DNA from: Gammaproteobacteria bacterium
Lineage (GTDB): Bacteria > Pseudomonadota > Gammaproteobacteria > Burkholderiales > Sulfuricellaceae
DNA: 64,000 nt
Direction of reading: 5' to 3'
NCBI GenBank assembly: GCA_018824405.1
Contig: JAHJGO010000017.1
Coordinates: 1 to 64,000 of the forward strand
The notes under the pieces were generated by a model that had not been told where the DNA came from, did not search any database, and was given only the letters and a program-made list of their open reading frames with translations. The position numbers were made by a program, and so were the translations under genes. Below are positions 15,854 through 59,990 of the stretch, piece by piece (positions within the stretch are counted from its first letter, which is position 1; each line of letters opens with the position of its first letter).

Positions 15854-17209
15854 ATGGCCAAAGCCAAATCCATCTACACCTGCACCGAATGCGGCGGCCA
15901 GTCGCCCAAGTGGCAGGGCCAGTGCCCGCACTGCACGGCATGGAACACATTGGTCGAAACTGTCGCGGAAAGTGCTGCGGGCAATCGCTACAACGCCCTG
16001 GCTGTAACCAGCAAGGTGCAGAGCCTGAGCGAAGTCGAGGCCCAGGAAGTGCCGCGAGATCCGACCGGCATCGCAGAATTCGACCGGGTGCTGGGCGGCG
16101 GACTGGTGCAGGGTGCCGTAGTGCTGATCGGCGGCGACCCGGGCATCGGGAAATCCACCTTGTTGCTGCAAGCCCTGTGCCATCTGAGTTCCAAGCATCA
16201 GGTACTCTACGTCAGCGGCGAGGAATCCGCACAGCAGATCGCCTCGCGCGCCAAACGTCTCGCGCTGGAAGCCAGATCCGTCCAGTTGCTGGCAGAAATC
16301 AGCCTGGAAAAAATTCTTTCCACCCTGGCTGCGAACAAACCAGCAGTAGCCGTGATTGACTCGATCCAGACCGTTTACTCCGAAGCACTGCAATCCGCCC
16401 CCGGCAGTGTGGCGCAGGTACGCGAGTGCGCAGCCCAACTGACGCGCTTCGCCAAGCAATCCGGCACGGCCGTGATCCTGGTCGGCCACGTCACCAAGGA
16501 AGGCGCCCTGGCAGGTCCAAGAGTGCTGGAGCACATCGTCGACACCGTGCTTTATTTCGAAGGCGACAGCAATTCCAGTTTCCGCCTGGTGCGCGCTTTC
16601 AAGAACCGCTTTGGCGCGGTCAACGAACTGGGTGTCTTTGCCATGACCGAAAAAGGGCTGCGCGAGGTCAGTAATCCATCGGCACTATTCCTCTCCCATC
16701 ACGGGCAGGATGTTGCTGGATCGTGCGTCATGGTCACGCAGGAAGGCACGCGGCCACTGCTGGTGGAAATTCAGGCACTGGTGGACGAAGCCCATGCGCC
16801 CAACCCGCGCCGCCTGTCGGTGGGGCTGGAGCAGAACCGCCTGGCCATGCTGCTTGCGGTGCTGCACCGTCATGCGGGAATAGCCTGTTTCGATCAGGAT
16901 GTATTTGTCAACGCCGTGGGTGGGGTCAAGATCACCGAACCGGCGGCGGATCTGGCTGTGCTGCTGGCGATTGTGTCTTCGCTCAGGAACCGGCCACTGC
17001 CGGGCAAGCTGGTGGTGTTCGGCGAAATCGGTCTGGCTGGCGAAATCCGCCCGGTACAGCGCGGACAGGAACGTCTCAAGGAAGCCGCCAAGCTGGGCTT
17101 CACTCACGCGGTCGTCCCAAAAGGCAACAAACCCAAACATGCGATTGCCGGCATGGAGATTACCGCTGTTGAACGGCTGGAACAGGCCGTCGATTATTGC
17201 CGGGGCTAA
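15854..17209 (+). CDS. radA: DNA repair and recombination protein RadA
   Basis: RadA is a RecA-like branch-migration ATPase. The order is complete: zinc finger CTECGGQSPKWQGQCPHC, Walker A GGDPGIGKSTLL, the RadA-specific KNRFG motif in AFKNRFGAVNELG, and a Lon-protease-like C-terminal domain (from about residue 290). I start at MAKAKSIYTC (15854), three bases after the alr stop. Length is 451 residues. Confidence 0.97.
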   Translation: MAKAKSIYTCTECGGQSPKWQGQCPHCTAWNTLVETVAESAAGNRYNALAVTSKVQSLSEVEAQEVPRDPTGIAEFDRVLGGGLVQGAVVLIGGDPGIGKSTLLLQALCHLSSKHQVLYVSGEESAQQIASRAKRLALEARSVQLLAEISLEKILSTLAANKPAVAVIDSIQTVYSEALQSAPGSVAQVRECAAQLTRFAKQSGTAVILVGHVTKEGALAGPRVLEHIVDTVLYFEGDSNSSFRLVRAFKNRFGAVNELGVFAMTEKGLREVSNPSALFLSHHGQDVAGSCVMVTQEGTRPLLVEIQALVDEAHAPNPRRLSVGLEQNRLAMLLAVLHRHAGIACFDQDVFVNAVGGVKITEPAADLAVLLAIVSSLRNRPLPGKLVVFGEIGLAGEIRPVQRGQERLKEAAKLGFTHAVVPKGNKPKHAIAGMEITAVERLEQAVDYCRG

Positions 17210-17211
17210 AA

Positions 17212-17982
17212 ATGACTACCAACACGTTCACTTGGGAGTTCGCCGGCGCCACCGACACTGGTCGCGTCAGGCCAGGTAACGAAGATGCCATAGTATGGAA
17301 CGCTGATTCCGGCCTGGCTTTGCTTGCCGACGGCATGGGCGGGTACGAGGGTGGAGAAATCGCCAGCAACCTGGCCATCAAAACGGCTCTTGAATCCTTT
17401 GGAAAACCCCTCGCACCGCACTGGCGCGAAGCCGAATGGGCCCAGAAAGTCAGTGACCCCATATTGAAGCTCTACGCGGCTGTCAGCGAGGCCAACCAAA
17501 GCGTGCATGCCACCGCGCTCAAACAGACTCGCTACGAAGGCATGGGCACCACTTTTCTGGCCGCCTATTTTCACGACAACCGGGTCACGCTGGCCCATAT
17601 TGGAGATTCACGCATTTATCTATGGCGCAATCGCGCCTTGAAACAGCTCACTGTAGATCACACCATGATCCAGGAGCGCCTCCAGAACGGGGAAATCACG
17701 GCTGCGGAAGCTGCATCCGACACTTACCGTGGTGTATTGACGCGCGCTCTGGGCGTGGATCCTGTGGTGGAAGTAGACATGCGCGAGGTCACCATCCAGG
17801 CCGGGGATATTTTTCTGCTGTGTTCTGACGGATGTTACGATATGCTCGCTTACGATGAAATGATTGCCATCATGAACGCCTGCCAGGAAGATCCGCAGCA
17901 ACTGGTTCGATTACTGGTGCGGCAAGCAAACGAAAACGGCGGTTATGACAATATTTCGGCCGTTGTGGTGCGTATTGGGTAG
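17212..17982 (+). CDS. PP2C-family Ser/Thr protein phosphatase, first copy
   Basis: This Mg/Mn-dependent phosphatase removes phosphate from Ser/Thr. The metal-binding motifs are all visible: RPGNEDA, ADGMGGYEGGE, GMGTTFLA, AHIGDSRIYLW, CSDGCYDML and DNISAVVV. At 256 residues it is a single-domain, cytoplasmic enzyme of the PppA/PrpC type. It starts two bases after the radA stop and is followed after 17 bp by an FHA protein. A second, related PP2C+FHA pair lies at 21347-22879. Its likely opponent is the kinase at 19847-21181. Confidence 0.93.
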   Translation: MTTNTFTWEFAGATDTGRVRPGNEDAIVWNADSGLALLADGMGGYEGGEIASNLAIKTALESFGKPLAPHWREAEWAQKVSDPILKLYAAVSEANQSVHATALKQTRYEGMGTTFLAAYFHDNRVTLAHIGDSRIYLWRNRALKQLTVDHTMIQERLQNGEITAAEAASDTYRGVLTRALGVDPVVEVDMREVTIQAGDIFLLCSDGCYDMLAYDEMIAIMNACQEDPQQLVRLLVRQANENGGYDNISAVVVRIG

Positions 17983-17999
17983 GAATTAGGACTCGTTTT

Positions 18000-18737
18000 A
18001 TGTCTAAACTGGTTTTACAGGGAGAACGCGGTCCTGCCAAGGAGTTTGCACTCGACCACGAACGTGTCACGATCGGGCGCAAGGCGAATAGCGATATCCA
18101 TCTTGATGACTCTGCGGTGAGCGGGAATCACGCCGTCATCATCACTCTGGGCAGTGATTCCTTTCTGGAAGATCTGGAGAGTACCAATGGCACCAAGGTC
18201 AATCAGAGCAGTATCCACAAATACGTACTTCAGGATGGCGACGAAATCCGTATCGCCCACTTTACCTTCACCTTTGTCAGCGAGGCGCTGGAAGCCAGCG
18301 CACCGGGCAAAACCATTTCAGCAACGCCAAGAACAGAGATTGCAACCACGCCTCACGCCGTCGCGCTGGATGGGGTCACCACAATGCCAGGATTGAGCAA
18401 GCTCAATTCCATCACCAATCTGGGCGTACCAACCCAGAGCGATATCTTCGGAAGCAATGAAGATAACCAAAGCAGCAGTCTCGCGCATGGCATCCTGAAA
18501 ATCACCACCGGCCTGGGCGCCGGACAGACGCTGGAATTGTCCAGACCTGTCACCACACTGGGCAAGCCCGGGATTCAGGTTGCCGCCATTACATTGCGTG
18601 ACGGCCAGTATTATCTCGGGCTGGTTGAGGGCTCGGATCTGCCTCTGATCAATAAAAATGAAATCAAGACACTCCCCTGCAAACTCCAGTCCGGTGATGT
18701 CATCGGTATCGCTGGTGTCGAACTGGAGTTCTCCTGA
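18000..18737 (+). CDS. FHA-domain phosphothreonine-binding protein, first copy
   Basis: The N-terminal FHA domain (residues ~5-95) has IGRKANSDIHLDD, the SGNHAVI core and STNGTKVN, the residues that read phosphothreonine. A linker follows and then a second, weaker FHA-like fold from about residue 165 (GAGQTLELSRPVTTLGKPG). The same two-part plan is found in the second copy at 22172. No membrane segment is seen. AGGA precedes the ATG. Known partners of such proteins are targets of the nearby kinase. Confidence 0.88.
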   Translation: MSKLVLQGERGPAKEFALDHERVTIGRKANSDIHLDDSAVSGNHAVIITLGSDSFLEDLESTNGTKVNQSSIHKYVLQDGDEIRIAHFTFTFVSEALEASAPGKTISATPRTEIATTPHAVALDGVTTMPGLSKLNSITNLGVPTQSDIFGSNEDNQSSSLAHGILKITTGLGAGQTLELSRPVTTLGKPGIQVAAITLRDGQYYLGLVEGSDLPLINKNEIKTLPCKLQSGDVIGIAGVELEFS

Positions 18738-19314: not shown

Positions 19315-19326
19315 CCCGGCTAATTC

Positions 19327-19842: not shown

Positions 19843-19846
19843 GAAT

Positions 19847-21181
19847 TTATTTGAATTTGTGTTTGATTTTTTGGGTTGCTTCAGATTCGACATCAAGCAC
19901 TTGAGAATAAGTCGTGAAGCCTGGGTTTCGAATTTCAATTATGTGCTTGCCAACCGGCAGTTTCAACTCGTTCAGCGGCGGAGAAACGCCTTCGCGCTTC
20001 CCATCCACAAAAATCTCTCCCCAGGGAGTCACCGCCAAGGCGACTGTTCCCTGCGGCGTGGAAAGGATCGACAGTAAAGGTGCGTCAGGCTTTTCGGACT
20101 CTACCTCAAGATTTGCATTCACACCTGGAGTTTGGTCCTGAAGCGCTGGTTTTTCGCTGCTCAGGAGAAAAAACCCCAGCACCAGAAAAATCGCACCGAC
20201 AGCCAGAACAAGTGGACGCTTCCACCATGGACGCACAAATTCAGAACTGGGCGACACACCGGCAGCCATCAGCAAAGTCTGTTCGTCAAGTGAGCGAGGT
20301 TTGCTGCGGCGCTCCAGGGTACGTGGTTTCCCATCGGATCCCGCATGGAAATTCAAAGGCGTGTGCAATGTCCGGTTATTACGTAAATCCTCCGCCATCT
20401 CGGCAGCATTCTGATAACGGTCATCCGGATGTTTGGCCAAAGCCTTGGCGACTATGTAATTAAAGACTTCCGGCAAATCAGGCTTGAGCGTCACCGGAGC
20501 CACCGGCATTTCATTGAGGATGCGATACATGATGACGCTGATGTTTTCTCCGCTGAACGGCGGCTTTCCCGTCAGCATTTCATACAGCATTACCCCTAGT
20601 GAAAAAATATCAGAGCGGCTATCCACATCCTGTCCAACAACCTGCTCGGGCGACATGTATTTGGGCGACCCCAGCACCATACCCGCCATGGTACGGGAAG
20701 ACGAAGGGATCAGCGCAATACCGAAATCAGTGATCTTCGCCACCCCATTTTTCAGGATCATGATGTTGGAAGGCTTGATATCACGGTGGACCACGCCATG
20801 CTCGTGCGCAAATGCCAGGCCATCAGCAACCTGACTGGCAATTTCTACGATTCGGTCGAGGTCAAGTTGCGCGCCGCCATCCATGATATCGCGCAACTCC
20901 ACGCCTTCCAGAAACTCCATCGCCATATAGGCAATATGGTCTGTATTCCCCACGTCATGAACAGTGACGATATTGGGGTGATTGAGGCGTCCGGCCGAAC
21001 TCGCCTCGCGGTAGAAGCGTTGCTCGAATTCCTCGAATTCATCCTTGGACAGTTCCAGACTGATGGTCTTGATCGCAACCGTCCGCTCCAGCAAAGGATC
21101 CAAAGCGCGGTAAACCACACCCATCGCACCCTGCCCGATTTCGGAGACAATTTCGTAACGGCCTATTTTTTGCTTGATCAT
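19847..21181 (-). CDS. Membrane Ser/Thr protein kinase with C-terminal PEGA domain
   Basis: An N-terminal Hanks-type kinase (residues ~1-265) has the glycine loop GQGAMGVVYRA, VAIKTI, the catalytic loop HRDIKPSNIMI, DFGIALI and the SPEQVVGQ segment. A single membrane segment (LVLAVGAIFLVLGFFLL) lies near residue 330. The outer part ends in a PEGA-type domain (WGEIFVDGKREGVSPP). This is the PpkA/PknB-like plan. It is divergent from the second PP2C gene, with 165 bp between them, and the two PP2C enzymes are its likely antagonists. Confidence 0.93.
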   Translation of the reverse strand: MIKQKIGRYEIVSEIGQGAMGVVYRALDPLLERTVAIKTISLELSKDEFEEFEQRFYREASSAGRLNHPNIVTVHDVGNTDHIAYMAMEFLEGVELRDIMDGGAQLDLDRIVEIASQVADGLAFAHEHGVVHRDIKPSNIMILKNGVAKITDFGIALIPSSSRTMAGMVLGSPKYMSPEQVVGQDVDSRSDIFSLGVMLYEMLTGKPPFSGENISVIMYRILNEMPVAPVTLKPDLPEVFNYIVAKALAKHPDDRYQNAAEMAEDLRNNRTLHTPLNFHAGSDGKPRTLERRSKPRSLDEQTLLMAAGVSPSSEFVRPWWKRPLVLAVGAIFLVLGFFLLSSEKPALQDQTPGVNANLEVESEKPDAPLLSILSTPQGTVALAVTPWGEIFVDGKREGVSPPLNELKLPVGKHIIEIRNPGFTTYSQVLDVESEATQKIKHKFK

Positions 21182-21346: not shown

Positions 21347-22159
21347 ATGTCCGTGCGCAGTGCTCTGGAAATCTCAACCATTACCGATACAGGTGTTGTC
21401 CGCTCGTTCAACGAGGACACCATTGCTACCGAACCCGATCTGGGCCTGGCCTTGGTGGCAGACGGCATGGGTGGATACAAGGCAGGAGACGTGGCTAGCG
21501 GCATGGCGGCCTCGATCATGATGATGGAACTCAAGCGCCAGCTGCGCGAAACTTCTCCCACCGCAAGCCGCATTGCAGAAATGCTGGAATTTTCCGTTGG
21601 CAGGGCCAATCGCGCAATTCATCAAGCGGCTCAGGCCAGCCCACAGCACCACGGCATGGGCACCACACTGGTTGCAGTTGTATTCCATGACAATCGACTG
21701 CATTTTGCTCATATCGGCGACTCGCGCCTCTACCGTCTTCGCCAAGGCAAGCTTCAGGTGCTTACACAAGACCATTCCATTCTTCATGAGCAGGTCGCTC
21801 TCGGTCTGATTTCCAATGATGACGCCAAAATCTCCCATAACCGCAATCTGGTGACTCGCGCCCTGGGTGTCGAAGCTCAGAGCGAATGCGAGGTGCAGGC
21901 TCTGGCCGTCGAGGTTGGCGACATCTATCTGTTGTGTTCGGACGGCCTGAACGACATGGTGGACGACGTCAACATCGAACTTGCCCTGAATTCGCTGCAA
22001 GCCAACCTGCCGCTTACAGTAAAACAGCTGGTGATGATGGCCAACGACAACGGCGGACACGACAATGTTTCCGCAATTCTGATTAAAGTGCATGAGTCCT
22101 TCCCTGCTATTGAGCAAAGCCCGGGACTGTTTGGCAGGCTCTTCGGCTGGCTGAAATAA
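21347..22159 (+). CDS. PP2C-family Ser/Thr protein phosphatase, second copy
   Basis: The motifs are the same as in the first copy: RSFNEDT, ADGMGGYKAGD, GMGTTLVAV, AHIGDSRLYRL, CSDGLNDMVDD and DNVSAILI. Length is 270 residues. AGGGGA precedes the ATG by ten bases. It is divergent from the kinase gene and nine bases upstream of an FHA gene. Its similarity in order and motif spacing to 17212-17982 points to duplication of a phosphatase-FHA cassette. Confidence 0.93.
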   Translation: MSVRSALEISTITDTGVVRSFNEDTIATEPDLGLALVADGMGGYKAGDVASGMAASIMMMELKRQLRETSPTASRIAEMLEFSVGRANRAIHQAAQASPQHHGMGTTLVAVVFHDNRLHFAHIGDSRLYRLRQGKLQVLTQDHSILHEQVALGLISNDDAKISHNRNLVTRALGVEAQSECEVQALAVEVGDIYLLCSDGLNDMVDDVNIELALNSLQANLPLTVKQLVMMANDNGGHDNVSAILIKVHESFPAIEQSPGLFGRLFGWLK

Positions 22160-22171
22160 CAGGAGAAAATG

Positions 22172-22879
22172 ATGGCAAAACTGGTTTTAAGCCTGGATGG
22201 CGAAGTACTCGGGTATCATTTTCTCGAAAAAGCGAGCTTTGGAATCGGTCGCAAACCAGAGAACGAAATGCAGATCGACGATTCGTCCGTCAGCAAGGAA
22301 CACGCTGTCATTCTCACCGTGGGCAATGATCAGATACTGGAAGACCTGGGCAGCACCAACGGCACGCTGGTGAATGGGGTCAAGATCAAGAAACACATCC
22401 TGCAGAACAACGATGTGATCGACATCGGTCGCTATCAGCTCAGGTATATCAACCAGAAGGCAAAACCCGGTGTGGATTCTGACCGCACCATCATGATGAT
22501 GCCGGTGATGAGCCAGAGGCACAGAGAAGAAAAATCAGAAAGCCCGGCACAGACAGCAACCCTTCCAGATACGGCAGTTTCGGTGGCACGTGTAGCTAAT
22601 GACATTTTTCCGCTGGGGGGGATCAAAGGGCTGCAGGGCCCCCTTGCAGGTCAGACGCTGGAATTAAGCCGCCCCCTTGCAACTTTTGGCAAGGCAGGCG
22701 TCCAGGTGGCCGTCATCAACCGTCGTCCGCACGGCTATTCCATCACGCGGGTGGAAGGCAAAAAGCCACCGCTGGTCAATGGCCTGGCAATCGGCGAGGA
22801 AGCGCAACTGCTGCAGGATGAAGATCAAATCGAAGTGGGCGGAGAAATTCTGCGTTTTTTTCTGAAACAGACCGCTTAA
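22172..22879 (+). CDS. FHA-domain phosphothreonine-binding protein, second copy
   Basis: The N-terminal FHA domain shows FGIGRKPENEMQIDDSSVSKEHAVI and STNGTLVNG. The C-terminal part repeats the degenerate FHA-like fold (LAGQTLELSRPLATFGKAG), as in the first copy. Two ATGs lie side by side (22169, 22172); I use the second, which aligns with MSKLVL of the first copy and has AGGAG seven bases upstream. Its stop overlaps the stop of the convergent SDR gene by three bases (shared TTAA). Confidence 0.88.
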   Translation: MAKLVLSLDGEVLGYHFLEKASFGIGRKPENEMQIDDSSVSKEHAVILTVGNDQILEDLGSTNGTLVNGVKIKKHILQNNDVIDIGRYQLRYINQKAKPGVDSDRTIMMMPVMSQRHREEKSESPAQTATLPDTAVSVARVANDIFPLGGIKGLQGPLAGQTLELSRPLATFGKAGVQVAVINRRPHGYSITRVEGKKPPLVNGLAIGEEAQLLQDEDQIEVGGEILRFFLKQTA

Positions 22880-47446: not shown

Positions 47447-49294
47447 ATGCGAGTCATGCGCCGCTTACCCATCCCGCCCCTTGTGCTGCTCGCACTTGCC
47501 ATTGCACTGATCGCAAGCGCTGAAATTTCCGCCCTGCATTGGCTGCTGCCTCTGGAAAATCGTGTTTCCGATTATTTTGTCAGAACCCACGCCCTGACGC
47601 TGAAAGCCGATCCGGATATCGTGATCGTGGATATCGACGAAAAAAGCCTTGCCAGCATGGCGGACACCGCAGGCAGCTGGCCCTGGCCGCGCTCCGTCCA
47701 TGGCGAGCTGGTAGAGACCATCGAGCGGCAACAGCCGAAAGCGATTGTGTTCGACATCCTGTTTACCGACCCGGACATTTACCGCCCGGAAAGCGATGCG
47801 TACTTCAATACAGCGGTTCAGCAGCATCGCAATATTTATTTCCCCATGATCCGGCTCGATTCCGCCAACGACAGCAAGGGCGTGCCCATCACGGAGTTTG
47901 CGGCACTGATCGGCATGGAAGCGACTTCCAGAGCAGATCCGGATGCCAGAGTGGCACTGGTTCCGCCACGTGCCATTTCCACCGATAGCTGGCGGCTTGG
48001 CACCATCAACTACAGCGAAGACAGCGACGGCATCGGTCGCCGTTACCACATTTATCTGCCGGCCTCCGGCTGGCGCATTCCCTCCTTGCCGACCCGGCTG
48101 GCCAAAGATCTGGGCTTTGACGTGCCAGAAGCCGACCAGATCATTCTCGGCTGGCGCGGCGGCGCGCTCTCGCATCCGCATATTTCCTACGCTGATCTCT
48201 ACCATGATGCCAGCCGCAAAACCCCATTGCGCCCGCAGCAGGAACTGAAGGACAAGATTGTCATCATCGGCGCCAGCGCTTCGGGCCTGCACGATATTCG
48301 TTCAACTCCGATCAGCAGCCTGCATCCGGCACAGGAAATCCTTGCCACCGCCATCGACAACCTGAAAAACCGCAGTTATCTCCTTGCTGCGCCAGCCTAT
48401 AGCGCACCTGTTCTGACTTTGGCATTACTGGCGCTGCTGTTGCTGCTGTTTACGCGATACCAGCAGACCCTGCGCATTGGAGCCGTGCTGCTGGCGATCA
48501 CGGCAATGCTGCTGGGCGCCAGTTATTTCGCAGTCAGCCAGCGCTGGCTGATGCCGGTATTTCTTCCGCTGTTGTTTGCCTGGGCATTCTACTTTGCAGC
48601 GGCGCTGCACGAGTACCTGCGCGAGCGCAAGGCACGCGAACAGACGGTCCAGATGTTCAACCGTTTTCTCGATCCACGCGTGGTGAATGAGCTGATGGAC
48701 CAGGGCAGGACAGCCCAGAGCATGAGCGGACAGACACAGACCCTGAGCGTGCTTTTTTCCGATATCCGCAATTTCACCACCTACTCGGAACAGCACAGCG
48801 CGGAACAGGTAGTCGCCATGCTGAACCGTTATTTCAGCCTGCAGGTGGAGGTGATTTTTCGTCACGGCGGCACGCTGGACAAGTTCATCGGCGACGCCAT
48901 CATGGCTTTCTGGGGAGCGCCCACCGCTGACCCCCAGCACGCCACCAATGCCGTGGCAGCCGCGCTGGAAATGGCCCAGCGCCTGGAAGAATTCAAGCTC
49001 GAACTGGGCGAAGCCGGGGCCGCCTTCGATGTCGGCATCGGCATCCATAGCGGTCCGGCGGTGGTTGGCTTCATTGGCTCTGAGAGACGTCAGGATTACA
49101 CCGCCATCGGTGACACGGTCAATTTATCCAGTCGCATCGAGGGACAAACCAAGGGCGTAGCGCGTATTCTTGTATCGGACGAAACCCGCGCCTTATGTGA
49201 GGATAAGTTTGACTTTATCGATCATGGATTTTATAAAGTCAAAGGACGGACTCAGGAAGCGCATCTGTTCGAACCACGGAGGAAAGCGGAATGA
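47447..49294 (+). CDS. CHASE2-domain adenylate cyclase (class IIIb)
   Basis: A first helix (LVLLALAIALIASAE) leads into a CHASE2 extracellular sensor (residues ~30-310). Three further helices follow (~320-400), then a class III cyclase. The metal aspartates are in LFSDIRNF and IGDAIMAFW. The base-specifying lysine (DKFIGD) with threonine in YTAIGDTVN marks a class IIIb adenylate cyclase, a type often activated by bicarbonate. Two ATGs (47447, 47456) are possible; neither ribosome site is decisive. Its stop overlaps the next ATG (ATGA). It begins the eight-gene signalling block. Confidence 0.92.
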   Translation: MRVMRRLPIPPLVLLALAIALIASAEISALHWLLPLENRVSDYFVRTHALTLKADPDIVIVDIDEKSLASMADTAGSWPWPRSVHGELVETIERQQPKAIVFDILFTDPDIYRPESDAYFNTAVQQHRNIYFPMIRLDSANDSKGVPITEFAALIGMEATSRADPDARVALVPPRAISTDSWRLGTINYSEDSDGIGRRYHIYLPASGWRIPSLPTRLAKDLGFDVPEADQIILGWRGGALSHPHISYADLYHDASRKTPLRPQQELKDKIVIIGASASGLHDIRSTPISSLHPAQEILATAIDNLKNRSYLLAAPAYSAPVLTLALLALLLLLFTRYQQTLRIGAVLLAITAMLLGASYFAVSQRWLMPVFLPLLFAWAFYFAAALHEYLRERKAREQTVQMFNRFLDPRVVNELMDQGRTAQSMSGQTQTLSVLFSDIRNFTTYSEQHSAEQVVAMLNRYFSLQVEVIFRHGGTLDKFIGDAIMAFWGAPTADPQHATNAVAAALEMAQRLEEFKLELGEAGAAFDVGIGIHSGPAVVGFIGSERRQDYTAIGDTVNLSSRIEGQTKGVARILVSDETRALCEDKFDFIDHGFYKVKGRTQEAHLFEPRRKAE

Positions 49295-49842
49295 AATTAC
49301 TTGTTGCATGGGTTTTGCTGGGGCTTAGCATTAGTCTTTCAGCCACCGCCGAAACGGCAGTCACGAACAAGGAAACCGAACTCAAGCAGGAGCCCTTCAG
49401 CGACGCCGCCACACTCGTCACTTTGCCGGCACAAAGCTCGGTGGAAATTCTCAAGCGACAGGGCGGCTGGACGCAGGTCAAGCCTGCCACTGCCGCCACG
49501 GGATGGGTCAGGATGCTGAATCTGCGCCTGGGCACTGGCGCTCCTGCAAAACAGGGCGGTTCCGGCATCGGCGCCCTCTTCAACGTCGCCCGCAGCGGCA
49601 GCAGCGGCAACACCGTCACGACCGGCGTCAGAGGCCTGGATATCACCAAGGACACCCTGCAGAATGCCAGCCCCAACCCAAATGAACTCAAGCGCATGCA
49701 CGGCTACAGCGTCAGCAAGGCCGAGGCGCTCAAACTGGCGAGCAGCGCGAAACTGAGCAAACAGTCTGTGGAGTATATTGAAGCCGGATCGAGCCGTTCA
49801 TCCTCCGGCGCCAAACCGGCTTCTTCCTGGGGGGACAATTGA
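49291..49842 (+). CDS. Secreted bacterial SH3-domain protein
   Basis: A cleavable signal (MKLLVAWVLLGLSISLSATAE) is followed by an SH3_3-type domain (residues ~25-80: KQEPFSDAATLVTLPAQSSV, QGGWTQVKPA, GWVRMLNLRL), typical of periplasmic proteins that bind peptide or cell wall. The C-terminal half is Ser/Gly-rich with RGLDITKDTLQNASPN. GGAGG precedes the ATG. It overlaps the cyclase and the M48 protease genes, so the three are coupled. 183 residues. Confidence 0.82.
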   Translation: MKLLVAWVLLGLSISLSATAETAVTNKETELKQEPFSDAATLVTLPAQSSVEILKRQGGWTQVKPATAATGWVRMLNLRLGTGAPAKQGGSGIGALFNVARSGSSGNTVTTGVRGLDITKDTLQNASPNPNELKRMHGYSVSKAEALKLASSAKLSKQSVEYIEAGSSRSSSGAKPASSWGDN

Positions 49843-50711
49843 TGAAGCGCACATATTGGCAATTAACGACTCTGCTTGTGGGCGCATTGCTGACGTCCCA
49901 GGCCTCGGCATTTGGCGGTCTCAACCTGGATCTCAACAAGCTGATCAGTGCAGGCAAAAATCTGAACGAAGCCTCCAAGGATATTAGCGAACCAGAGGAA
50001 ATATCCATTGGCGAGGGCATGGCCTCCGTCCTGCTGGGCACCGCCCCCCTGGTGAAGAGCGATACCTTGCAGACGTATGTCAATCAGGTCGGCCGCTACC
50101 TTTCCCTGCAGACCGAACGCCCCGATCTGCCCTGGCACTTCGGCGTATTGGATTCCGATAGCGTCAATGCTTTTGCCACGCCGGGCGGACATATTTTCAT
50201 CACTTCCGGACTGCTGAGAAAAATGCACAGTGAAGCTGAACTGGCCGGGGTACTGTCACATGAAATAGCCCATGTACTGCGCAAGCATCACCTTGTTGCC
50301 ATGAAAAAAGCTGGCGGCATGGGTTTCCTCACGGACGTAGCAAGCATCGCGGTTGACCAGAAAGGGGGCGGAGGCTATGCCGGCAAGGAACTGAGCAAGA
50401 ATCTGATCAGCGGCATGAAGGAAATTCTGGTGCGCGGCCTCGACAAGGATGACGAATACGAAGCCGACCGCATGGGCGTGGTGATCGCCACCCGCGCGGG
50501 CTACGACTCATATGGCCTGCCTGCCGTATTGCAGATGCTGGATGGATTATCCAATACCAGCGACGTATCGTTGCTGTTCTCCACTCACCCGGCACCAGAG
50601 AGCCGCATGGACACCCTTTCCGGTGTGATGCAATCGAAATTTGATCACTACCAGGGACAGAGCGTGAATGACCGCTTCCGCCGCCTGATGACGAACAGCG
50701 CAAAAAAATGA
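49842..50711 (+). CDS. Periplasmic M48-family zinc metalloprotease
   Basis: Signal peptide (MKRTYWQLTTLLVGALLTSQASA), then an M48 protease domain. The zinc motif is HEIAH in LAGVLSHEIAHVLRKHH, with the third ligand in DEYEADRMGV. This is the BepA/LoiP-like soluble group that acts on outer-membrane or periplasmic proteins. 289 residues. It overlaps the SH3 gene (TGATG) and the phosphodiesterase gene, so the three belong to one transcript. A protease and SH3 partner may process or tune the sensor domain of the cyclase; this is inference. Confidence 0.9.
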   Translation: MKRTYWQLTTLLVGALLTSQASAFGGLNLDLNKLISAGKNLNEASKDISEPEEISIGEGMASVLLGTAPLVKSDTLQTYVNQVGRYLSLQTERPDLPWHFGVLDSDSVNAFATPGGHIFITSGLLRKMHSEAELAGVLSHEIAHVLRKHHLVAMKKAGGMGFLTDVASIAVDQKGGGGYAGKELSKNLISGMKEILVRGLDKDDEYEADRMGVVIATRAGYDSYGLPAVLQMLDGLSNTSDVSLLFSTHPAPESRMDTLSGVMQSKFDHYQGQSVNDRFRRLMTNSAKK

Positions 50712-51475
50712 TGCAATTGCGCGTCCTGGGGTGTAGCGGTGGCATCGGTGCCGGGTTGCGAACCACAGCGATGCTTCTGGACCAGGACATTCTGATCGAT
50801 GCCGGCACCGGCGTTGGCGACCTGACTCTGGAGGCAATGAGCCGGATTGACCATGTGTTTCTCACTCACTCGCACCTCGACCATGTCACCAGCCTGCCTT
50901 TTCTGCTCGATTCCGTTGGCGCCATGCGCGACCGGCCGGTCACCGTTTATGCACTGCCAGAAACCATAGCAACATTGCGGGAGCACTTGTTCAACTGGAA
51001 GCTGTGGCCGGATTTCACCCAGATTCCCAATCCGGACCACCCTTTTCTGCGCTTCAAGGTCATACACACAGGCCAACCCGTGGAACTGGATGGACGCAGA
51101 ATTACCGCGCTTCCCGCCCGGCATGTCGTCCCGGCAGTGGGTTATCTGCTTGACAGTGGCGAATCCAGCCTGGCTTTCAGCGGCGACACCATCGATTGCC
51201 CCGAATTCTGGGATGCGCTCAACCAGGTAGAAAACCTGCGCCACCTGATCATCGAGGTTTCCTTTGCCGACGAGGAAAACGGCATCGCCCATGCATCCAG
51301 GCACTACTACCCCTCGCTGCTGGCAGAACAGTTGCCCAGACTGCTGAAACAGGCAGAAATTTACATTACCCATCTCGGGCCGGGAGATCAGCCACGCATC
51401 ATGGCTGAAATCCTCGCAAAGGTGCATGGCACCGCACCAAGAATGCTGGCTCACGGCCAACTTTTTGAATTTTGA
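50708..51475 (+). CDS. MBL-fold cyclic-nucleotide (cAMP) phosphodiesterase
   Basis: The fold is metallo-beta-lactamase with the THSHLDHVTSLPFLLD motif of class II (PDE1/CpdP-like) cAMP phosphodiesterases. Further metal ligands are in FSGDT and THLGPGD. The N-terminus QLRVLGCSGGIGAGLRTT is typical of the family. No signal peptide: cytoplasmic, 255 residues. Pairing with an adenylate cyclase three genes upstream suggests it hydrolyses the cAMP made there. It overlaps the M48 gene stop. Confidence 0.87.
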   Translation: MMQLRVLGCSGGIGAGLRTTAMLLDQDILIDAGTGVGDLTLEAMSRIDHVFLTHSHLDHVTSLPFLLDSVGAMRDRPVTVYALPETIATLREHLFNWKLWPDFTQIPNPDHPFLRFKVIHTGQPVELDGRRITALPARHVVPAVGYLLDSGESSLAFSGDTIDCPEFWDALNQVENLRHLIIEVSFADEENGIAHASRHYYPSLLAEQLPRLLKQAEIYITHLGPGDQPRIMAEILAKVHGTAPRMLAHGQLFEF

Positions 51476-51493
51476 TCAATATCGGAATTTATC

Positions 51494-53842
51494 GTGAATA
51501 CCCAGGCATCAGAAAGCAACGCCGAACTCAGCAGCCAGCTTGTCTTTTCGCGCAAGCTGAATGCCGTCACCAACAAGATTCACGCCACCCAGAACATCGA
51601 CGAAATCATGCTGCAGCTATCGAGCGACATCTGTGCCCTGTTTGAGGCAGATCGCCTGACCATCTATACCGTCGATGAAGAAAAATCATCCATCGTCACA
51701 AAAATCAAAACCGGTCTGGGCGCTTTCAAGGATTTCAAGCTGCCCATTTCATCGCAAAGCGTGGCGGGTTATGTGGCACTCAACAAGACCATCGTCAACA
51801 TCAGGGATGTGTACGACGATGAAGAACTGAAATCCTACAACCCAGGAATCACCTTCCTCAAGGACATCGACCGCAAGAGCGGCTACCGCACCAGACAAAT
51901 GCTGGTGGCGCCAATCATTGACGCAGACAGCGGCGAACTGATCGGGGTCATTCAACTGATCAACGCCCTGTCCGGGCAACCCTTTCCCGCAGTAGCGGAA
52001 GAAGGCATGCAGGAACTGGCCAGAACTTTGGCCATCGCGTTCAGGATGCGCAAGCGCATCCGCACCAAATTTGATTCACTGATCGGCCAGGGCATACTCT
52101 CCCCAGCCGAAATCGAACTGGCGACACGCTCCGCAAACCGTAAAAACAGGGATGTCGAAGACATCCTGCTGGACGAATTTCAGGTCAAACCGGCAGATAT
52201 GGGGCAGTCGCTGGCGGACTTCTATCATGTTCCCTACGAGCCTTTCAAATCCGACCGCATCAAGCCCGACGAGCTGCTCAAAAACCTCAAGCGCGACTAT
52301 GTCGAAGGCAGCCTGTGGGTGCCGGTTGACGACACCCCTGAAGGCATGGTGATTCTGACCCCTGAGCCTGACCGGATCATGGGCTCGCGCGTGGTCAGCA
52401 ATATCTTTCCCAGACGCAAGCTGCTTTACCGGGTGTGCACGCACCGCGATTTCGCCGCGACGCTGAACCAGTTTTACGGCGCCTCCGCCAATCTCGGTTC
52501 AATTGACGACCTGCTTTCGAATCTGGACGATGAAACAGCCGAAGACGGCAGTTCCAGCAGTGACGAATTAACGGCTGCCGCCGACAACGAGCTGGTAAAA
52601 CTGGTCAACAAGATCATCGTGGACGCGTACAACCAGCGCGCTTCAGATATCCACATCGAGCCCTATCCCGGCAAGAACAAGACCATCATCCGTTTCCGCA
52701 AGGACGGCACGCTGTTCCCCTACATCGAAGTGCCGGCCAGCTACCGCTCCGCACTCCTGGCTCGTCTGAAAATCATGTGCGACCTGGATATATCCGAGAA
52801 GCGGAAACCCCAGGACGGCAAGATCATGTTCAAGAAATTCGGGCCGCTGGACATCGAACTGCGCGTGGCGACCATTCCTACATCGGGTGGCCTGGAGGAC
52901 GTGGTGATGCGCATCCTGGCTGCGGGCGAACCGATTCCCATTGACAAGCTGGGAGTCAGCCCGCACAACCTGGAACGCCTCAAGAAGGTGGTCAGCAAGC
53001 CCTATGGACTGTTTCTGGTGTGCGGCCCGACCGGTTCCGGCAAGACCACCACCCTGCATTCGGTACTGGGCCATATCAACACCCCGGAAACCAAGATCTG
53101 GACCGCCGAAGACCCGGTCGAAATCACCCAGAAAGGCCTGCGTCAGGTGCAGGTCAACCCCAAGGCGGGAATCACCTTTGCCGTGGCGATGCGCGCCTTC
53201 CTGCGTGCCGATCCGGATGTGGTGATGGTAGGCGAGATGCGCGACAAGGAAACCGTCGCCACTGGTATCGAAGCCTCGCTCACCGGCCATCTGGTGCTCT
53301 CGACGCTGCATACCAACAGCGCACCGGAAAGTATCGTGCGCCTGCTCGACATGGGCATGGACCCGTTCAACTTTGCCGACGCCCTGCTCGGCATCCTGGC
53401 CCAGCGTCTGGGCAAGAGCCTGTGCTCGGCGTGCAAGCAACCCTATACGCCATCAGCAAGCGAAATCGAATCCCTGCTCACGGAATACAGCGAAGAGCTG
53501 CTGAACACCCCTGATTGGCTGCAAGACCCGGTTGCCGCTCGCAAGAACCTGCACCAGTCGTGGATCAAAACCTACGGCAATGAAAAGGGCGAACTGCAAA
53601 TGCACAGGCCGGTCGGCTGCGAAAAATGCAACAAGACTGGTTACAAGGGCCGCTTTGGCCTGCACGAACTGCTGATCGGCTCGGATGCCGTCAAGAAAAA
53701 CATCCAGGAACACGCCCGTGTTGCCGAAATGACGGTGACCGCACTGTCCGAAGGCATGCGGACCCTGCGCCAGGATGGTATCGAGAAGGTCTTGCAGGGC
53801 ATCACCGACATGAAACAGGTGCGGTCCGTCTGCATCAAATAG
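51494..53842 (+). CDS. GAF-domain GspE/PilB-type secretion or pilus ATPase
   Basis: Three parts are seen in 782 residues. A GAF sensor (residues ~20-180) contains LVAPIIDADSGELIGVIQLIN. An MshEN/T2SSE_N-like domain (~195-310) contains GQGILSPAEIELA, a type that can bind c-di-GMP. The ATPase (~370-780) has Walker [16 protein letters not shown], the Asp box, Walker B VGEMRDKETV and the zinc cysteines CSACK...CEKCNKTGYKGR. No pilin, inner-membrane platform or secretin gene lies nearby. The start is GTG. A GAF fusion to this ATPase is unusual. Confidence 0.9.
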   Translation: MNTQASESNAELSSQLVFSRKLNAVTNKIHATQNIDEIMLQLSSDICALFEADRLTIYTVDEEKSSIVTKIKTGLGAFKDFKLPISSQSVAGYVALNKTIVNIRDVYDDEELKSYNPGITFLKDIDRKSGYRTRQMLVAPIIDADSGELIGVIQLINALSGQPFPAVAEEGMQELARTLAIAFRMRKRIRTKFDSLIGQGILSPAEIELATRSANRKNRDVEDILLDEFQVKPADMGQSLADFYHVPYEPFKSDRIKPDELLKNLKRDYVEGSLWVPVDDTPEGMVILTPEPDRIMGSRVVSNIFPRRKLLYRVCTHRDFAATLNQFYGASANLGSIDDLLSNLDDETAEDGSSSSDELTAAADNELVKLVNKIIVDAYNQRASDIHIEPYPGKNKTIIRFRKDGTLFPYIEVPASYRSALLARLKIMCDLDISEKRKPQDGKIMFKKFGPLDIELRVATIPTSGGLEDVVMRILAAGEPIPIDKLGVSPHNLERLKKVVSKPYGLFLVCGPTGSGKTTTLHSVLGHINTPETKIWTAEDPVEITQKGLRQVQVNPKAGITFAVAMRAFLRADPDVVMVGEMRDKETVATGIEASLTGHLVLSTLHTNSAPESIVRLLDMGMDPFNFADALLGILAQRLGKSLCSACKQPYTPSASEIESLLTEYSEELLNTPDWLQDPVAARKNLHQSWIKTYGNEKGELQMHRPVGCEKCNKTGYKGRFGLHELLIGSDAVKKNIQEHARVAEMTVTALSEGMRTLRQDGIEKVLQGITDMKQVRSVCIK

Positions 53843-53851
53843 GGATATGTC

Positions 53852-55480
53852 ATGACCCAAGCCAACGCCAACCATCTGCTGCAACGCCTGGATGAACTCA
53901 ACGCCATCGGCATAGCGCTATCCGGGGAAAAGGACATCAACCGTCTGCTGGAGGCCATTCTGCTGGCAGCAGTTCGCATCACACACTGCGATGCGGGAAC
54001 CCTCTACAGCGTGGGCGAGGACCAGGCCCTGCATTTCGAGATCGTACGCACCCAGTCGCTCGGTATTGCGCTCGGAGGCACAACCGGCAAGCCGGTTCCA
54101 TTTCCTGCGGTGCCGCTCAACGACCCGAGCGGCCAGCCCAACAACAGCAATGTGGTGGCCTACGCGGTGCTGCACGACATCACAGTCAACATCGCCGATG
54201 CCTACAGTGAACAGGGCTTCGATTTCGCCGGCACGCGCAAATTCGACAGCGCCAACCACTATCGATCCAAATCCTTCCTCACAGTGCCGATGAAAAACCA
54301 TGAGGGCAAGATCATCGCGGTACTGCAGCTGATCAATGCCCTCGACAAGGCGAGCGGCGAAATCACCCCCTTTTCCAGACCGGATCAGCACCTGGTGGAA
54401 TCGCTGGCATCCCAGGCCGCCATCGCCCTCACCAACCGGGCGCTGATCAACCAGCTGGAAGACCTGTTCGAATCTTTCATCACACTCATCAACATCGCCA
54501 TTGACGAAAAGTCGCCCTACACCGGCGGGCACTGCGAACGCGTACCGGTGCTCACCATGCTGCTGGCCGAGGCGGCGAGCAAGACCACAAGCGGACCGCT
54601 GGCCGGTTTTCAGATGAGCGACAAGGACCGCTACGAACTCAAGATAGCCGGGCTGCTGCACGATTGCGGCAAGATCACCACACCGGTGCACGTGGTGGAC
54701 AAGGCCAGCAAGCTGCAAACCCTGTTCGACCGCATCCGCCTGATCGACACCCGTTTCGAGGTACTGAAACGCGATGCCGAAGTCGACATGCTGAAACAGA
54801 AGCTGGCTGCACTGGAGAAAGGTACACGCGACACGACACAGATCGAAGCCGCCTTCCGCGAACGCATCGCCCAACTGGATGACGACCGTGAATTTCTGCA
54901 GAAGGCCAACATCGGCGGAGAATTCATGTCCCCGCCGTTGCAGCAGCGAGTAAAGGATATCGGTGCCTACCGCTGGATCAATGAAGCGGGGCAGGAATCC
55001 TGCTTTTTGTCCGAGGAGGAAATCCTCAACCTGAATATCGAAAAAGGCACGCTGACTGCAGAAGAGCGTGAAATCATCAACCATCACGTCATTTCCACCA
55101 TCAACATGCTGCAGGCGCTGCCCTGGCCGACGCATCTCCAGCGCGTGCCGGAATATGCTGGCGGCCATCACGAACGCGTTGATGGCAGGGGCTACCCGAA
55201 AGGCTTAAAAGGATCTGACATGTCGGTACAGGCACGCATCATGGCCATTGCCGACATTTTCGAGGCGCTCACCGCCAAGGACCGCCCCTACAAGGAAGGC
55301 AAGAAACTGAGCGATGCGCTGAACATTCTAGGCCGCATGAAACTGGACCAGCATGTGGACCCAGACCTGTTCGACATTTTTATCCGTGACCAGGTCTATC
55401 TCCAGTATGCACGGGACTATCTTGAGGACTACCAGATCGACGCAGTGGATGCCAGCAAGATCCCGGGGTATACGCCCTGA
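53852..55480 (+). CDS. GAF-HD-GYP protein with inserted segment in the HD-GYP domain
   Basis: An N-terminal GAF domain (residues ~15-200) resembles that of the preceding gene (LLAAVRITHCDAGTLYS, VPMKNHEGKIIAVLQLIN). The HD-GYP domain begins GGHCERV and LLHDCGK near residue 265, but the second half (REIINHHV, HHERVDGRGYPKGL) begins only near residue 402. About 110 residues with a coiled-coil look lie between, where ordinary HD-GYP domains have none. Metal ligands and the GYP motif are complete, so c-di-GMP hydrolysis is plausible. 542 residues; nine bases after the ATPase gene. Confidence 0.9.
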   Translation: MTQANANHLLQRLDELNAIGIALSGEKDINRLLEAILLAAVRITHCDAGTLYSVGEDQALHFEIVRTQSLGIALGGTTGKPVPFPAVPLNDPSGQPNNSNVVAYAVLHDITVNIADAYSEQGFDFAGTRKFDSANHYRSKSFLTVPMKNHEGKIIAVLQLINALDKASGEITPFSRPDQHLVESLASQAAIALTNRALINQLEDLFESFITLINIAIDEKSPYTGGHCERVPVLTMLLAEAASKTTSGPLAGFQMSDKDRYELKIAGLLHDCGKITTPVHVVDKASKLQTLFDRIRLIDTRFEVLKRDAEVDMLKQKLAALEKGTRDTTQIEAAFRERIAQLDDDREFLQKANIGGEFMSPPLQQRVKDIGAYRWINEAGQESCFLSEEEILNLNIEKGTLTAEEREIINHHVISTINMLQALPWPTHLQRVPEYAGGHHERVDGRGYPKGLKGSDMSVQARIMAIADIFEALTAKDRPYKEGKKLSDALNILGRMKLDQHVDPDLFDIFIRDQVYLQYARDYLEDYQIDAVDASKIPGYTP

Positions 55481-55491
55481 GCGTCAGGGAT

Positions 55492-57078
55492 ATGCCTGAG
55501 CTGATCAGGGCACTGCTCGAACCAGCCCGTTACGATCACCCGGTCAGCACTGTCGAACTGATCGAGACCCATATCTCCTGGGTTCTGCTCACCGGAAGCT
55601 ATGCCTACAAGATCAAGAAACCCGTCAATTTCGGCTTTCTCGATTTCAGCACGCTGGAGAAGCGCCGCTTCTATTGCGCGGAGGAACTGCGCCTCAACCG
55701 CCGCTTCGCCCCCAAGCTCTACCTGGAGGTCACCCCCATAGGTGGCACGCCACAGCATCCCGTCCTCAACGGAGATAGTGCGCCCATTGAATATGCCGTC
55801 AAAATGCGCCAGTTTCCGCAAGAAGTTTTGCTCGACCGCATGCTGGAAAATGGGCTGCTCAGCCCTGCCGAAGTGGATGAAATTGCACTTCAAGTGGCGC
55901 GCTTTCACGCCATGATTGCCACCAACCCTGCGCCGGTCGAGTTCGGTACGCCCGCCGCCGTCCAGCATCCGGTTCTGGAAAATTTTGCCCAAATAGTCGA
56001 ACGGGTGAATGGACGCCCGGAAGGGAAAATGCTGGCCGCACTGGAAGCATGGAGCAAGACAGAATTCACGCGGCTGCGCGAAAGCCTGGCCGCCCGCAAG
56101 GAGAATAATTACATTCGCGAATGCCATGGCGACCTGCATCTCGGCAACATGGCCTGGATCGATGGCGCGGTAACCCTGTTTGACTGCATCGAATTCAATC
56201 CCGCTCTGCGCTGGATCGATGTCATGAGCGATGCCGCCTTTGTGATCATGGATCTGCACGACCGGGGACGGTCCGATCTGGCGCAACGTTTTCTCAATAC
56301 CTATCTGGTGCATAGCGGCGACTTCAGCGGCCTCTGCGTACTAAACTATTATCTGGTCTATCGCGCCATGGTGCGCGCCAAAGTGGCCTGCATCCGCGGT
56401 TGCCAGCAGGGACTGGACGAGCGGCAGCAACAACTTGCATGGGAGCAGGCGAGGAGCTACCTGGCCCTGGCTAGCCGCTTCACCCAAGTTTCCCGCCCCT
56501 GGCTGATGATTACCCACGGCTATTCCGGATCGGGAAAAACCACGGCAACCCAGACTCTGCTGGAGCACAGCAGCGCCATCCGTGTGCGCTCCGACGTGGA
56601 ACGCAAGCGCCTGTTCGGACTGGCGCCGCAAGAGCACAGTCAGTCCGGATTAAAAACCGGAATTTATAGCCCCGAGGCCCACCGCCAGACTTATCAGCAT
56701 CTCGAACAGGTGGCGCGGGAAACACTTCAGGCGGGCTACCCGGCAATCGTCGATGCAGCTTTTCTGAAACTGGCCGAGCGCAAGGTATTCCAGGCCCTGG
56801 CAAAAGCCCTGCAGATACCCTTCGTCATCCTCCACCTGCAGGCCGATGAAACCACATTACGCCAGCGCATCACCGGCCGGCAGGAGTCCGGAAAGGATGC
56901 CTCCGAAGCCAACCTGCAAGTGCTGGAGCTACAATTGAATAACAGCGAAGGACTGACAACCGAAGAAACTGCCTCGACCTTTGTGCTGAATACGGAGCAT
57001 CCTGAGGCGGCACGTGCTGCACTGCAAAAGCTGGCCCGGCAGCTCATGGACAATCCCGACAAAATCTGTCAAGATTAA
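55492..57078 (+). CDS. Bifunctional aminoglycoside-phosphotransferase-like and AAA-type kinase protein
   Basis: The first ~330 residues have an APH/Fructosamine-kinase-like fold, with the catalytic HGDLHLGNMAW and the metal aspartate in LFDCIEFN. The last ~190 residues form a P-loop small-molecule kinase (THGYSGSGKTTATQTLL), gluconate-kinase-like. The fusion is known as a conserved but uncharacterised family in Proteobacteria. Substrate unknown; 528 residues. It starts 11 bases after the HD-GYP stop and 38 bases before the cNMP-binding gene. Confidence 0.85.
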   Translation: MPELIRALLEPARYDHPVSTVELIETHISWVLLTGSYAYKIKKPVNFGFLDFSTLEKRRFYCAEELRLNRRFAPKLYLEVTPIGGTPQHPVLNGDSAPIEYAVKMRQFPQEVLLDRMLENGLLSPAEVDEIALQVARFHAMIATNPAPVEFGTPAAVQHPVLENFAQIVERVNGRPEGKMLAALEAWSKTEFTRLRESLAARKENNYIRECHGDLHLGNMAWIDGAVTLFDCIEFNPALRWIDVMSDAAFVIMDLHDRGRSDLAQRFLNTYLVHSGDFSGLCVLNYYLVYRAMVRAKVACIRGCQQGLDERQQQLAWEQARSYLALASRFTQVSRPWLMITHGYSGSGKTTATQTLLEHSSAIRVRSDVERKRLFGLAPQEHSQSGLKTGIYSPEAHRQTYQHLEQVARETLQAGYPAIVDAAFLKLAERKVFQALAKALQIPFVILHLQADETTLRQRITGRQESGKDASEANLQVLELQLNNSEGLTTEETASTFVLNTEHPEAARAALQKLARQLMDNPDKICQD

Positions 57079-57115
57079 GGTTTTTACTCAGCCTAATTTG
57101 AATCAGGACACCATT

Positions 57116-57796
57116 ATGACCGCTGAACAATTCTCCCCCGAACAACGCATCCTGCGCGTCATGCGCAAGGTTCTGGCCAGTGTCGTCAAGGACGTCACCC
57201 CGCAGGAAGGCATGAACAACCCACTTACCGACCGCACCATCGAAGATATCCGCGATATTTTCGGCATGATTTCCACGCGTGAGAAAGAACTGCTCGAAGC
57301 TTTCGGCCAGGCCATGGGCGACCGCCCCTTCTACCCTGGCGAACAGCCTTCCGCCAAGGTCATTCCGATCAGCGTGGGAAGTCTGAAAGACTCACGCAAG
57401 AAAATCGAATCCAGCAACCCGCTTTCCGAAACGCCTTTGTTCAAGGGCGTCGATCTCGACGCACTGGATGAGTTGCTGGATGCCTGCCCGGTGTATGAAT
57501 TGAAGGCAGGCGAAGTCCTGCTGGGCGCCGGCGAAAAGAACAACGAGACCTACCTGGTACTGAACGGCCGGTTACAAGCCGACCTGGGAACGGCCGACGC
57601 ACCCCGCGTCATGGCTTTCGAACCCAAGCAGGCCATCGGCGAAATCTCGGTTCTGGGTGAGAGCACCATGTCTGCCCCGGTCGTGGCCACGGAAGAATCG
57701 GTAGTGCTGGCGATCCATCCCGACACCATGTGGGCGATGATGGAAATCGACGCCGTACTGGCGCACAATATCCTGAGTCTGCTCGCGCACCGCTAA
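57116..57796 (+). CDS. Cyclic-nucleotide-binding domain protein
   Basis: The C-terminal ~120 residues form a cNMP-binding beta-roll (ETPLFKGVDLDALDELLDACPVYELKAGEVLLGAGEKNNETYLVLNGRL shortened here; phosphate-cassette-like IGEISVLGESTMSAPVVA). The arginine usual in cAMP cassettes is replaced, so ligand identity is uncertain. The N-terminal ~110 residues are helical and hold no DNA-binding motif I can see, so it is not a CRP-type regulator. 226 residues. As the last gene of the block it is the likely reader of the cAMP made and degraded upstream. Confidence 0.85.
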   Translation: MTAEQFSPEQRILRVMRKVLASVVKDVTPQEGMNNPLTDRTIEDIRDIFGMISTREKELLEAFGQAMGDRPFYPGEQPSAKVIPISVGSLKDSRKKIESSNPLSETPLFKGVDLDALDELLDACPVYELKAGEVLLGAGEKNNETYLVLNGRLQADLGTADAPRVMAFEPKQAIGEISVLGESTMSAPVVATEESVVLAIHPDTMWAMMEIDAVLAHNILSLLAHR

Positions 57797-59937: not shown

Positions 59938-59964
59938 GGAATATTCCTTCTGACAACACAAGCT

Positions 59965-59990
59965 CATGGTAAGAATATTTCCTTACCATG
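59965..59990. promoter_or_regulatory. Inverted repeat upstream of prlF, probable autoregulatory operator
   Basis: CATGGTAAG (59965-59973) and CTTACCATG (59982-59990) are perfect 9-bp arms separated by 8 AT-rich bases. The right arm and spacer lie just upstream of prlF where the promoter should be. PrlF-YhaV complexes are known to bind such sites in their own promoter. The region 59991-60110 holds nothing else I recognise. Confidence 0.7.

Follow-up and report, generated by a model that had tools for sequence, protein, structure and literature searches.

Control of pilus ATPases by cyclic di-GMP (c-di-GMP) is known through MshEN and through FimX and PilZ, and control of pili by cyclic AMP (cAMP) is known through transcription, by way of Vfr. 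The threonine phosphorylation pathway of type VI secretion systems (T6SS) runs through PpkA, PppA and Fha. Here we analysed a 64,000-nucleotide stretch (the window) of contig JAHJGO010000017.1 from a gammaproteobacterium of the order Burkholderiales (assembly GCA_018824405.1; 3.03 Mb in 29 contigs), in which a block of eight genes at 47447-57796 places a GspE/PilB-family ATPase, with a GAF domain akin to those that bind cAMP, between predicted enzymes of cAMP and c-di-GMP turnover. The core of this block (hydrolase, ATPase and HD-GYP protein) belongs to a gene island that is present in many members of the order and apparently undescribed; a literature search by title and start of abstract, whose coverage left out most subscription papers, returned nothing on this gene cluster. 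The conserved island, with its type IV pilin, is the real find of the analysis.

All eight reading frames are open where an initial annotation of the block had placed them, on the + strand, and Pfam confirmed the domains named there. Below, module A denotes the CHASE2-SH3-M48 group of genes.

47447..49294, + strand: CHASE2 sensor and class III adenylate cyclase (Pfam CHASE2 5.3e-51, cyclase 6.2e-30)
49291..49842, + strand: SH3-type protein with an N-terminal stretch that looks signal-like by eye (SH3_3 7.2e-05, below its cut-off); module A
49842..50711, + strand: M48 metalloprotease (HEIAH), N-terminus signal-like by eye (Pfam M48 2.2e-31); module A
50708..51475, + strand: metallo-beta-lactamase-fold (MBL) hydrolase (HSHLDH), a predicted cyclic-nucleotide phosphodiesterase (MBL 3.7e-20, PDEase_II 5.9e-13); island core
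51494..53842, + strand: GAF-(degenerate MshEN)-GspE/PilB-family ATPase (GAF 5.7e-11, T2SSE 1.4e-118); island core
53852..55480, + strand: GAF-HD-GYP c-di-GMP phosphodiesterase (HDCGK, HHERVDGRGYP; Pfam GAF and HD_5 1.2e-43); island core
55492..57078, + strand: two-domain kinase, APH and AAA_33 (APH 1.6e-05, AAA_33 1.3e-34); seen in the genus only
57116..57796, + strand: cyclic-nucleotide-binding-fold (CNB) protein (cNMP_binding 6.8e-11); seen in the genus only

The overlaps also stood as described: 4 nucleotides (nt) between the cyclase and SH3 genes, 1 nt between SH3 and M48 (the ATG at 49842) and 4 nt between M48 and MBL, with gaps of 18, 9, 11 and 37 nt between successive genes thereafter. 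Two details were amended. For the CNB gene, ATG 57116 was chosen here as the most likely start, in place of GTG 57014, and an MshEN segment (2.7e-05), not named previously, lies between the GAF domain and the ATPase core.

An ordered gene island ending in a type IV pilin

The reach of the ATPase was surveyed with a match threshold of E <= 1e-150. Within the family 12 of 22 genomes gave a match, and within the order 158 of the 399 sampled, most listed matches there covering nearly the whole protein. Among 398 sampled genomes of the phylum, 39 had a match: 8 of this order (the window genome included), 6 of one other family of the class and 25 of other classes, with 43-45% identity outside the order. 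From the 158 genomes we hand-picked 60 loci with the ATPase, each at most 20 kb long, a non-random set that spans many families and favours long contigs, with two loci from the window's genus and two more from its family; contig ends cut some of them. A metagenome-assembled genome (MAG) record titled Bordetella parapertussis (L115) appears among the ATPase relatives, and its company there suggests a wrong label.

Window proteins used as tblastn queries matched these 60 loci widely for MBL (52), HD-GYP (46) and the cyclase or its CHASE2 part (36). Clustering of predicted genes, followed by searches with profiles built from the same 60 loci, then gave an island of fixed order, with domain names taken from Pfam runs on example members: kinase, PP2C, FHA, CHASE2-cyclase, MBL, an occasional CNB-rhodanese protein, ATPase, HD-GYP and type IV pilin. 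Profile matches numbered 35 for the CHASE2-kinase, 48 each for PP2C and FHA, 36 for the CHASE2-cyclase, 53 for MBL, 14 for CNB-rhodanese, 60 for the ATPase, 46 for HD-GYP and 35 for a same-strand pilin downstream of the ATPase; requiring coverage of 60% or more of the profile lowers the kinase, cyclase, CNB-rhodanese and pilin counts to 34, 33, 12 and 32. By first occurrence the order is unbroken in 60 of 60 loci, 59 of which carry two or more families, and the median distance between adjacent matches is 14-99 nt (nine pairs up to HD-GYP, each in at least 12 loci). The order is likewise unbroken in all 80 named loci, taken as the best of 547 and shared in part with the 60, and in the 46 of these with full context the kinase, PP2C, FHA, cyclase, MBL and HD-GYP genes each occur in 43-46 and the pilin in 33. 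One carrier of the full island with its pilin is Azospira sp. I13 (L184), a record without a MAG label. Beyond the nine island families no gene cluster exceeds 7 of 61 loci, which serves as an internal control against general synteny.

Part of this association extends to other classes. Among eight loci drawn from the 25 genomes, six have retained an HD-GYP gene of the island's family close to the ATPase, five of them with the two genes on opposite strands, and two hold a whole CHASE2-cyclase. ATPase and HD-GYP thus stay close without a common operon, which is good evidence of a working link.

That the ATPase has no machinery nearby is correct within the window, but 35 of the 60 loci have the pilin gene downstream of it. 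Because the distance from HD-GYP to pilin (median 294 nt, 25 loci) is longer than the other island distances, a separate promoter for the pilin is possible. In a Pfam pilin search of 39 whole genomes, mostly selected for a known linked pilin, 32 had a match. In 26 of them the ATPase was followed on the same strand, at a distance of no more than 10 kb, by a pilin, where a simple estimate predicts 0.07 such cases; the linked pilin was the sole Pfam pilin match of the genome in 14 of the 39. The window genome has two Pfam pilins, both on other contigs; some 12 kb separate the one on C20 from a pair of genes resembling PilB and PilC. Past the linked pilin we found a cluster with a Wzy_C match (Pfam, one member) in three loci and a TPR-repeat cluster in two, an arrangement that recalls pilin glycosylation genes.

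Composite origin of the eight-gene block

The eight genes had been read as one unit with a joint role in nucleotide signalling. Linkage of the cAMP-type enzymes, the c-di-GMP enzyme and the ATPase of the core exceeds chance and reaches far beyond the genus, in an order conserved throughout the island, but the unity of all eight does not hold. The block is a genus-level composite of the island core, the CHASE2-SH3-M48 module and two genes, the two-domain kinase and the CNB gene, that were observed in the window's genus only. In the tblastn survey the SH3, two-domain kinase, CNB and rimO proteins were matched solely in the two genus loci, and the nine M48 matches outside the genus had 28-31% identity.

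The cyclase itself is of another clade. It is 23-36% identical to its best matches in the non-genus loci of the 60, and 48-66% identical to cyclases that adjoin SH3 and M48 genes in 12 of 19 other loci, which were hand-picked from 112 genomes with an SH3 match. A branch supported at 100/100 in the cyclase tree separates the island cyclases from a module A side that includes the window and both genus rows. In this genus a module A-type cyclase therefore occupies the slot of the island's own cyclase. Such a replacement across clades amounts to a natural experiment and suggests that cAMP is what the slot has to supply.

Within the 19 module A loci, SH3 and M48 are adjacent in all, and a relative of the window CHASE2 protein stands beside them in 18 (the exception is L243). 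Three of these relatives (L237, L241 and L242) had a CHASE2 match and no cyclase match in Pfam, which identifies the CHASE2 sensor as the constant partner. These three are proteins of 562-613 amino acids (L237:7935-9620, L242:8144-9850 and L241:7441-9279), and their C-terminal ~200 residues, which have no Pfam match, are possibly a new output domain. The M48 protein of the window retains HExxH and scored 114.5 against the BepA model (NF052400; cut-off 570). Scanning the 19 loci with the island profiles found MBL in L239 and L240 only, and a whole ATPase or HD-GYP in none. L239 and L240, from two genomes of one family without an ATPase match, hold a tight unit of SH3, M48, an island-type CHASE2 cyclase and MBL, in which genes of these kinds have come together a second time and differently. 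A Sulfurimicrobium MAG (L106) has kept MBL, ATPase and HD-GYP, and most of its cyclase, SH3 and M48 genes are gone, with remnants of the cyclase and M48 ends at 8860-9260; either the three genes were lost as a unit or the assembly is at fault.

Origin of the block by a single deletion, fusing module A to the core from the arrangement of a sister genus, is doubtful. Module A lies ~30 kb (G010) and ~53 kb (G004) upstream of the ATPase, the CHASE2 partner in G010 and G003 (same genus) has no Pfam cyclase match, ilvE is not at module A in the sister genus, and the window cyclase groups with rows of another family (L227, L228).

At its borders the block is an isolated one-way unit, since its 5' neighbour is a divergent ilvE-type aminotransferase gene (46395-47315, minus strand; PF01063 1.4e-58; 95-98% identical in three relatives) and its 3' neighbour a convergent rimO-like gene. 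A promoter and terminator scan of the block returned chance levels (3 found against 4.6 expected, and 10 against 11.0). Further downstream, at 59159-59967, a YhaV-type toxin gene (PF11663 3.0e-56) and a same-strand frame of 116 amino acids are perhaps a toxin-antitoxin pair.

PP2C and FHA genes also occur elsewhere in the window, outside the block.

17197..18737, + strand: PP2C phosphatase and FHA gene, first pair, beside a RadA-like gene
19847..21181, - strand: Ser/Thr kinase with a PEGA domain, between the two PP2C-FHA pairs
21347..22879, + strand: PP2C phosphatase and FHA gene, second pair

This group (17197-22879) adjoins DnaB-, alanine racemase- and RadA-like genes, and its two pairs hold the only two FHA matches in the genome. 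A search of 23 genomes for FHA (FHA only, not PP2C) weighs against the idea that the pairs and the kinase at 17-23 kb are the displaced upstream half of the island. In G003, G004, G009 and G010 of the family the best match (52-55%) is away from any island, and G004 and G010 also carry an island FHA gene; the window pairs accordingly look like paralogues of the island pair.

A motor-type ATPase between two nucleotide systems

The cyclase and HD-GYP proteins carry the catalytic signatures of their families. The window cyclase carries FSDIRNFT, DKFIGD and YTAIGDTVNLSSR, which hold what we take to be the metal Asp pair, the substrate Lys and the Asn/Arg residues of the transition state, as in class III cyclases; the Lys signature is kept in 34 of 34 cyclases. 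HD-GYP proteins have the family motifs HDxGK (47/47) and HxExxDGxGYP (45/47). The MBL protein is probably a cyclic-nucleotide hydrolase by its sequence, with a score of 49.1 against the class II cAMP phosphodiesterase model PF02112 (cut-off 23.7) over 66 of 340 positions.

Two proteins of the block could have been readers of cAMP. The eighth gene, for which this role had been proposed, finds no support: the CNB protein has Met at the position of what is presumably the phosphate-binding cassette Arg, in the window and in three genus rows (two copies of one contig). The CNB-rhodanese protein of relatives, which keeps this Arg in 12 of 12, is the better candidate reader there. In the block itself the ATPase GAF is a better candidate than the CNB gene, judging from its kinship and contact residues. 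Its best match in PDB is the cAMP-binding CyaB2 (1ykd; 1.3e-32 as a profile, 4.7e-28 alone), followed by the GAF of an HD-GYP protein and by PDE10A, PDE2, PDE5 and PDE6. The cAMP contact positions of CyaB2 given in PMC4411481 include R291, T293 and D356. Aligned to R54, T56 and D126 of the ATPase, these are kept as R in 61 of 61 rows, T in 59 (S in 2) and D in 61; among the further contacts given there, the Ile/Val is kept in 60 of 61 and the N359 position is Thr or Ser. Fold comparison is by itself little informative, since a fold search (model with a predicted local distance difference test score, pLDDT, of 78 and a predicted template-modelling score, pTM, of 0.49) retrieved these groups along with many other GAF domains.

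Direct binding of c-di-GMP by the ATPase was considered and set aside. The c-di-GMP receptor motif of MshEN consists of two 24-residue RLGxx... motifs, as described in PMC5013675, and RLGxx[LIVM] occurs in the MshEN region of 0 of 61 ATPase rows.

We tentatively favour, at a little under even confidence, the reading that the core forms one end of a signalling island, found widely across the order, that controls type IV pilus output through a cAMP-gated accessory ATPase. Cues from the envelope would be picked up by the CHASE2 sensor, with the exported SH3 and M48 proteins perhaps as go-betweens in this genus; the cyclase would make cAMP and the MBL hydrolase remove it. cAMP would bind the ATPase GAF and so gate ATP-driven work on the existing type IV pilus platform and pilin of the cell. 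The HD-GYP protein may meanwhile lower local c-di-GMP, which would act on other pilus or biofilm receptors because the MshEN segment of the ATPase looks blind to it. In relatives, the kinase/PP2C/FHA branch and the CNB-rhodanese protein may add further control. A more specific proposition is possible though doubtful: a GspE/PilB motor would be gated directly by cAMP through a phosphodiesterase-type GAF, and its island would also encode the enzymes that make and destroy cAMP, a c-di-GMP hydrolase, a Ser/Thr kinase-PP2C-FHA relay and the pilin, so that three second-messenger or phosphorylation systems would converge on a single motor across much of the order.

The alternative that survives best accepts the accessory pilus motor and has its GAF sense something other than a cyclic mononucleotide, with the cyclase and MBL protein serving other targets, such as a Crp-type regulator, from a shared operon. 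It would account for the partial retention of NKFDE in the ATPase GAF (N157 and F164 in 61/61, E169 in 41/61), for the persistence of the ATPase in the 24 of 60 loci without a cyclase match and for the intact cassette of the CNB-rhodanese protein as a separate candidate cAMP reader. We consider it somewhat unlikely, as the best solved relatives of the ATPase GAF are cyclic-nucleotide GAFs and the CyaB2 contact residues vary little or not at all.

Another reading concerns the output. The ATPase core has the features of the PF00437 superfamily, with Walker A in 61 of 61 rows, Walker B in 60 and the four-cysteine motif in 52, and it scores below the NCBIfam cut-offs for both PilB (TIGR02538; 469.6 against 675.65 bits) and GspE (TIGR02533; 457.2 against 630.25 bits). 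In a tree that included 25 of the 61 island rows, 14 rows from outside and seven paralogues of the window genome, the island rows form a clade of their own (100/98) that excludes the PilB of the window genome; because branches among the paralogues are long, only the island clade is used from this tree. It had been proposed that platform genes lacking an ATPase might be found in the genome, and there were none: all seven platform proteins found there have an adjacent ATPase gene, so that the block ATPase would have to share a platform. These observations suit an ATPase that drives type II-like secretion or export, or that only signals, with the pilin nearby for historical reasons. They sit poorly with the pilin downstream in 35 of 60 loci and with the linkage of the sole Pfam pilin in 14 of 39 genomes, far above chance, and we regard this reading as unlikely. 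The window genome also encodes, at L190:7594-11060 (G000 contig C11), a GspE-family ATPase with a receiver domain before MshEN, behind a histidine kinase gene and with no platform gene nearby, which by its domains would be a second sensor-fitted motor ATPase.

Several observations weigh against cAMP gating of a pilus motor by the island ATPase. The GAF has lost K and D from NKFDE in each of 16 rows, and its 'ADR' Arg is shared with the GAF of the HD-GYP protein 4mcw. For the MBL hydrolase, the phosphodiesterase match spans just that short segment, and no NCBIfam model exceeded its cut-off. Linkage is also incomplete: no cyclase was matched in 24 of 60 loci and no HD-GYP in 14, these being either dispensable there or lost to contig ends; the island kinase/PP2C/FHA genes and the pilin are unlinked in the window's genus; and six of the 32 genomes that have a Pfam pilin (G016, G399, G101, G035, G084 and G163) do not show the pilin linkage described above. 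Finally, island partners are absent from five ATPase loci of another family of the class, from two loci of the order in which little or none of the GAF is present in the ATPase match, and from beside a second ATPase copy in the genus.

A loose cluster of envelope or biofilm signalling genes, held by co-transcription with no direct molecular coupling, would fit the mosaic make-up of the window block and its two genus-only members, and is very unlikely given that the island order holds in all 60 loci, which span many families, and that ATPase and HD-GYP stay close on opposite strands in five of eight loci of other classes.

Relation to known signalling and motor systems

A motor ATPase with a cAMP-type GAF, encoded between cAMP and c-di-GMP enzymes, allows a direct test of whether cAMP switches a pilus motor. 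If it does, this would be a new kind of pilus control, with several signalling systems converging on one pilus motor.

Several elements of the island have described counterparts from which they depart. The kinase, PP2C and FHA genes of relatives are set in a row with a secretion-type machine, as in the PpkA-PppA-Fha pathway of T6SS; the island kinase, however, carries CHASE2, and its partners are a GspE-family ATPase and a pilin. The HD-GYP protein resembles PDB 4mcw, presumably from Persephonella, in the fusion of a GAF to an HD-GYP domain with full catalytic motifs, and differs in adjoining a GAF-ATPase and in a GAF without the cAMP-contact Arg (G or A in 47 of 47). With PilB and GspE the block ATPase has in common the whole ATPase core, the intact Walker A and, in most rows, the four-cysteine motif, whereas it scores below both cut-offs, forms its own clade and has no platform gene beside it in the window genome. 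Its GAF belongs to the same sequence subfamily as those of Anabaena CyaB2 and the mammalian phosphodiesterases, and the cAMP contacts of CyaB2 are kept; in contrast to these proteins, it has a single GAF with NKFDE partly lost, and the output is a motor ATPase rather than a cyclase or phosphodiesterase. The MshE/MshEN-type ATPases are likewise GspE-family ATPases with an N-terminal MshEN, and the island ATPase is linked to a c-di-GMP enzyme; measured against the motif given in PMC5013675, it lacks the RLG half-motifs in 61 of 61 rows and bears an extra, cyclic-nucleotide-type GAF in front.

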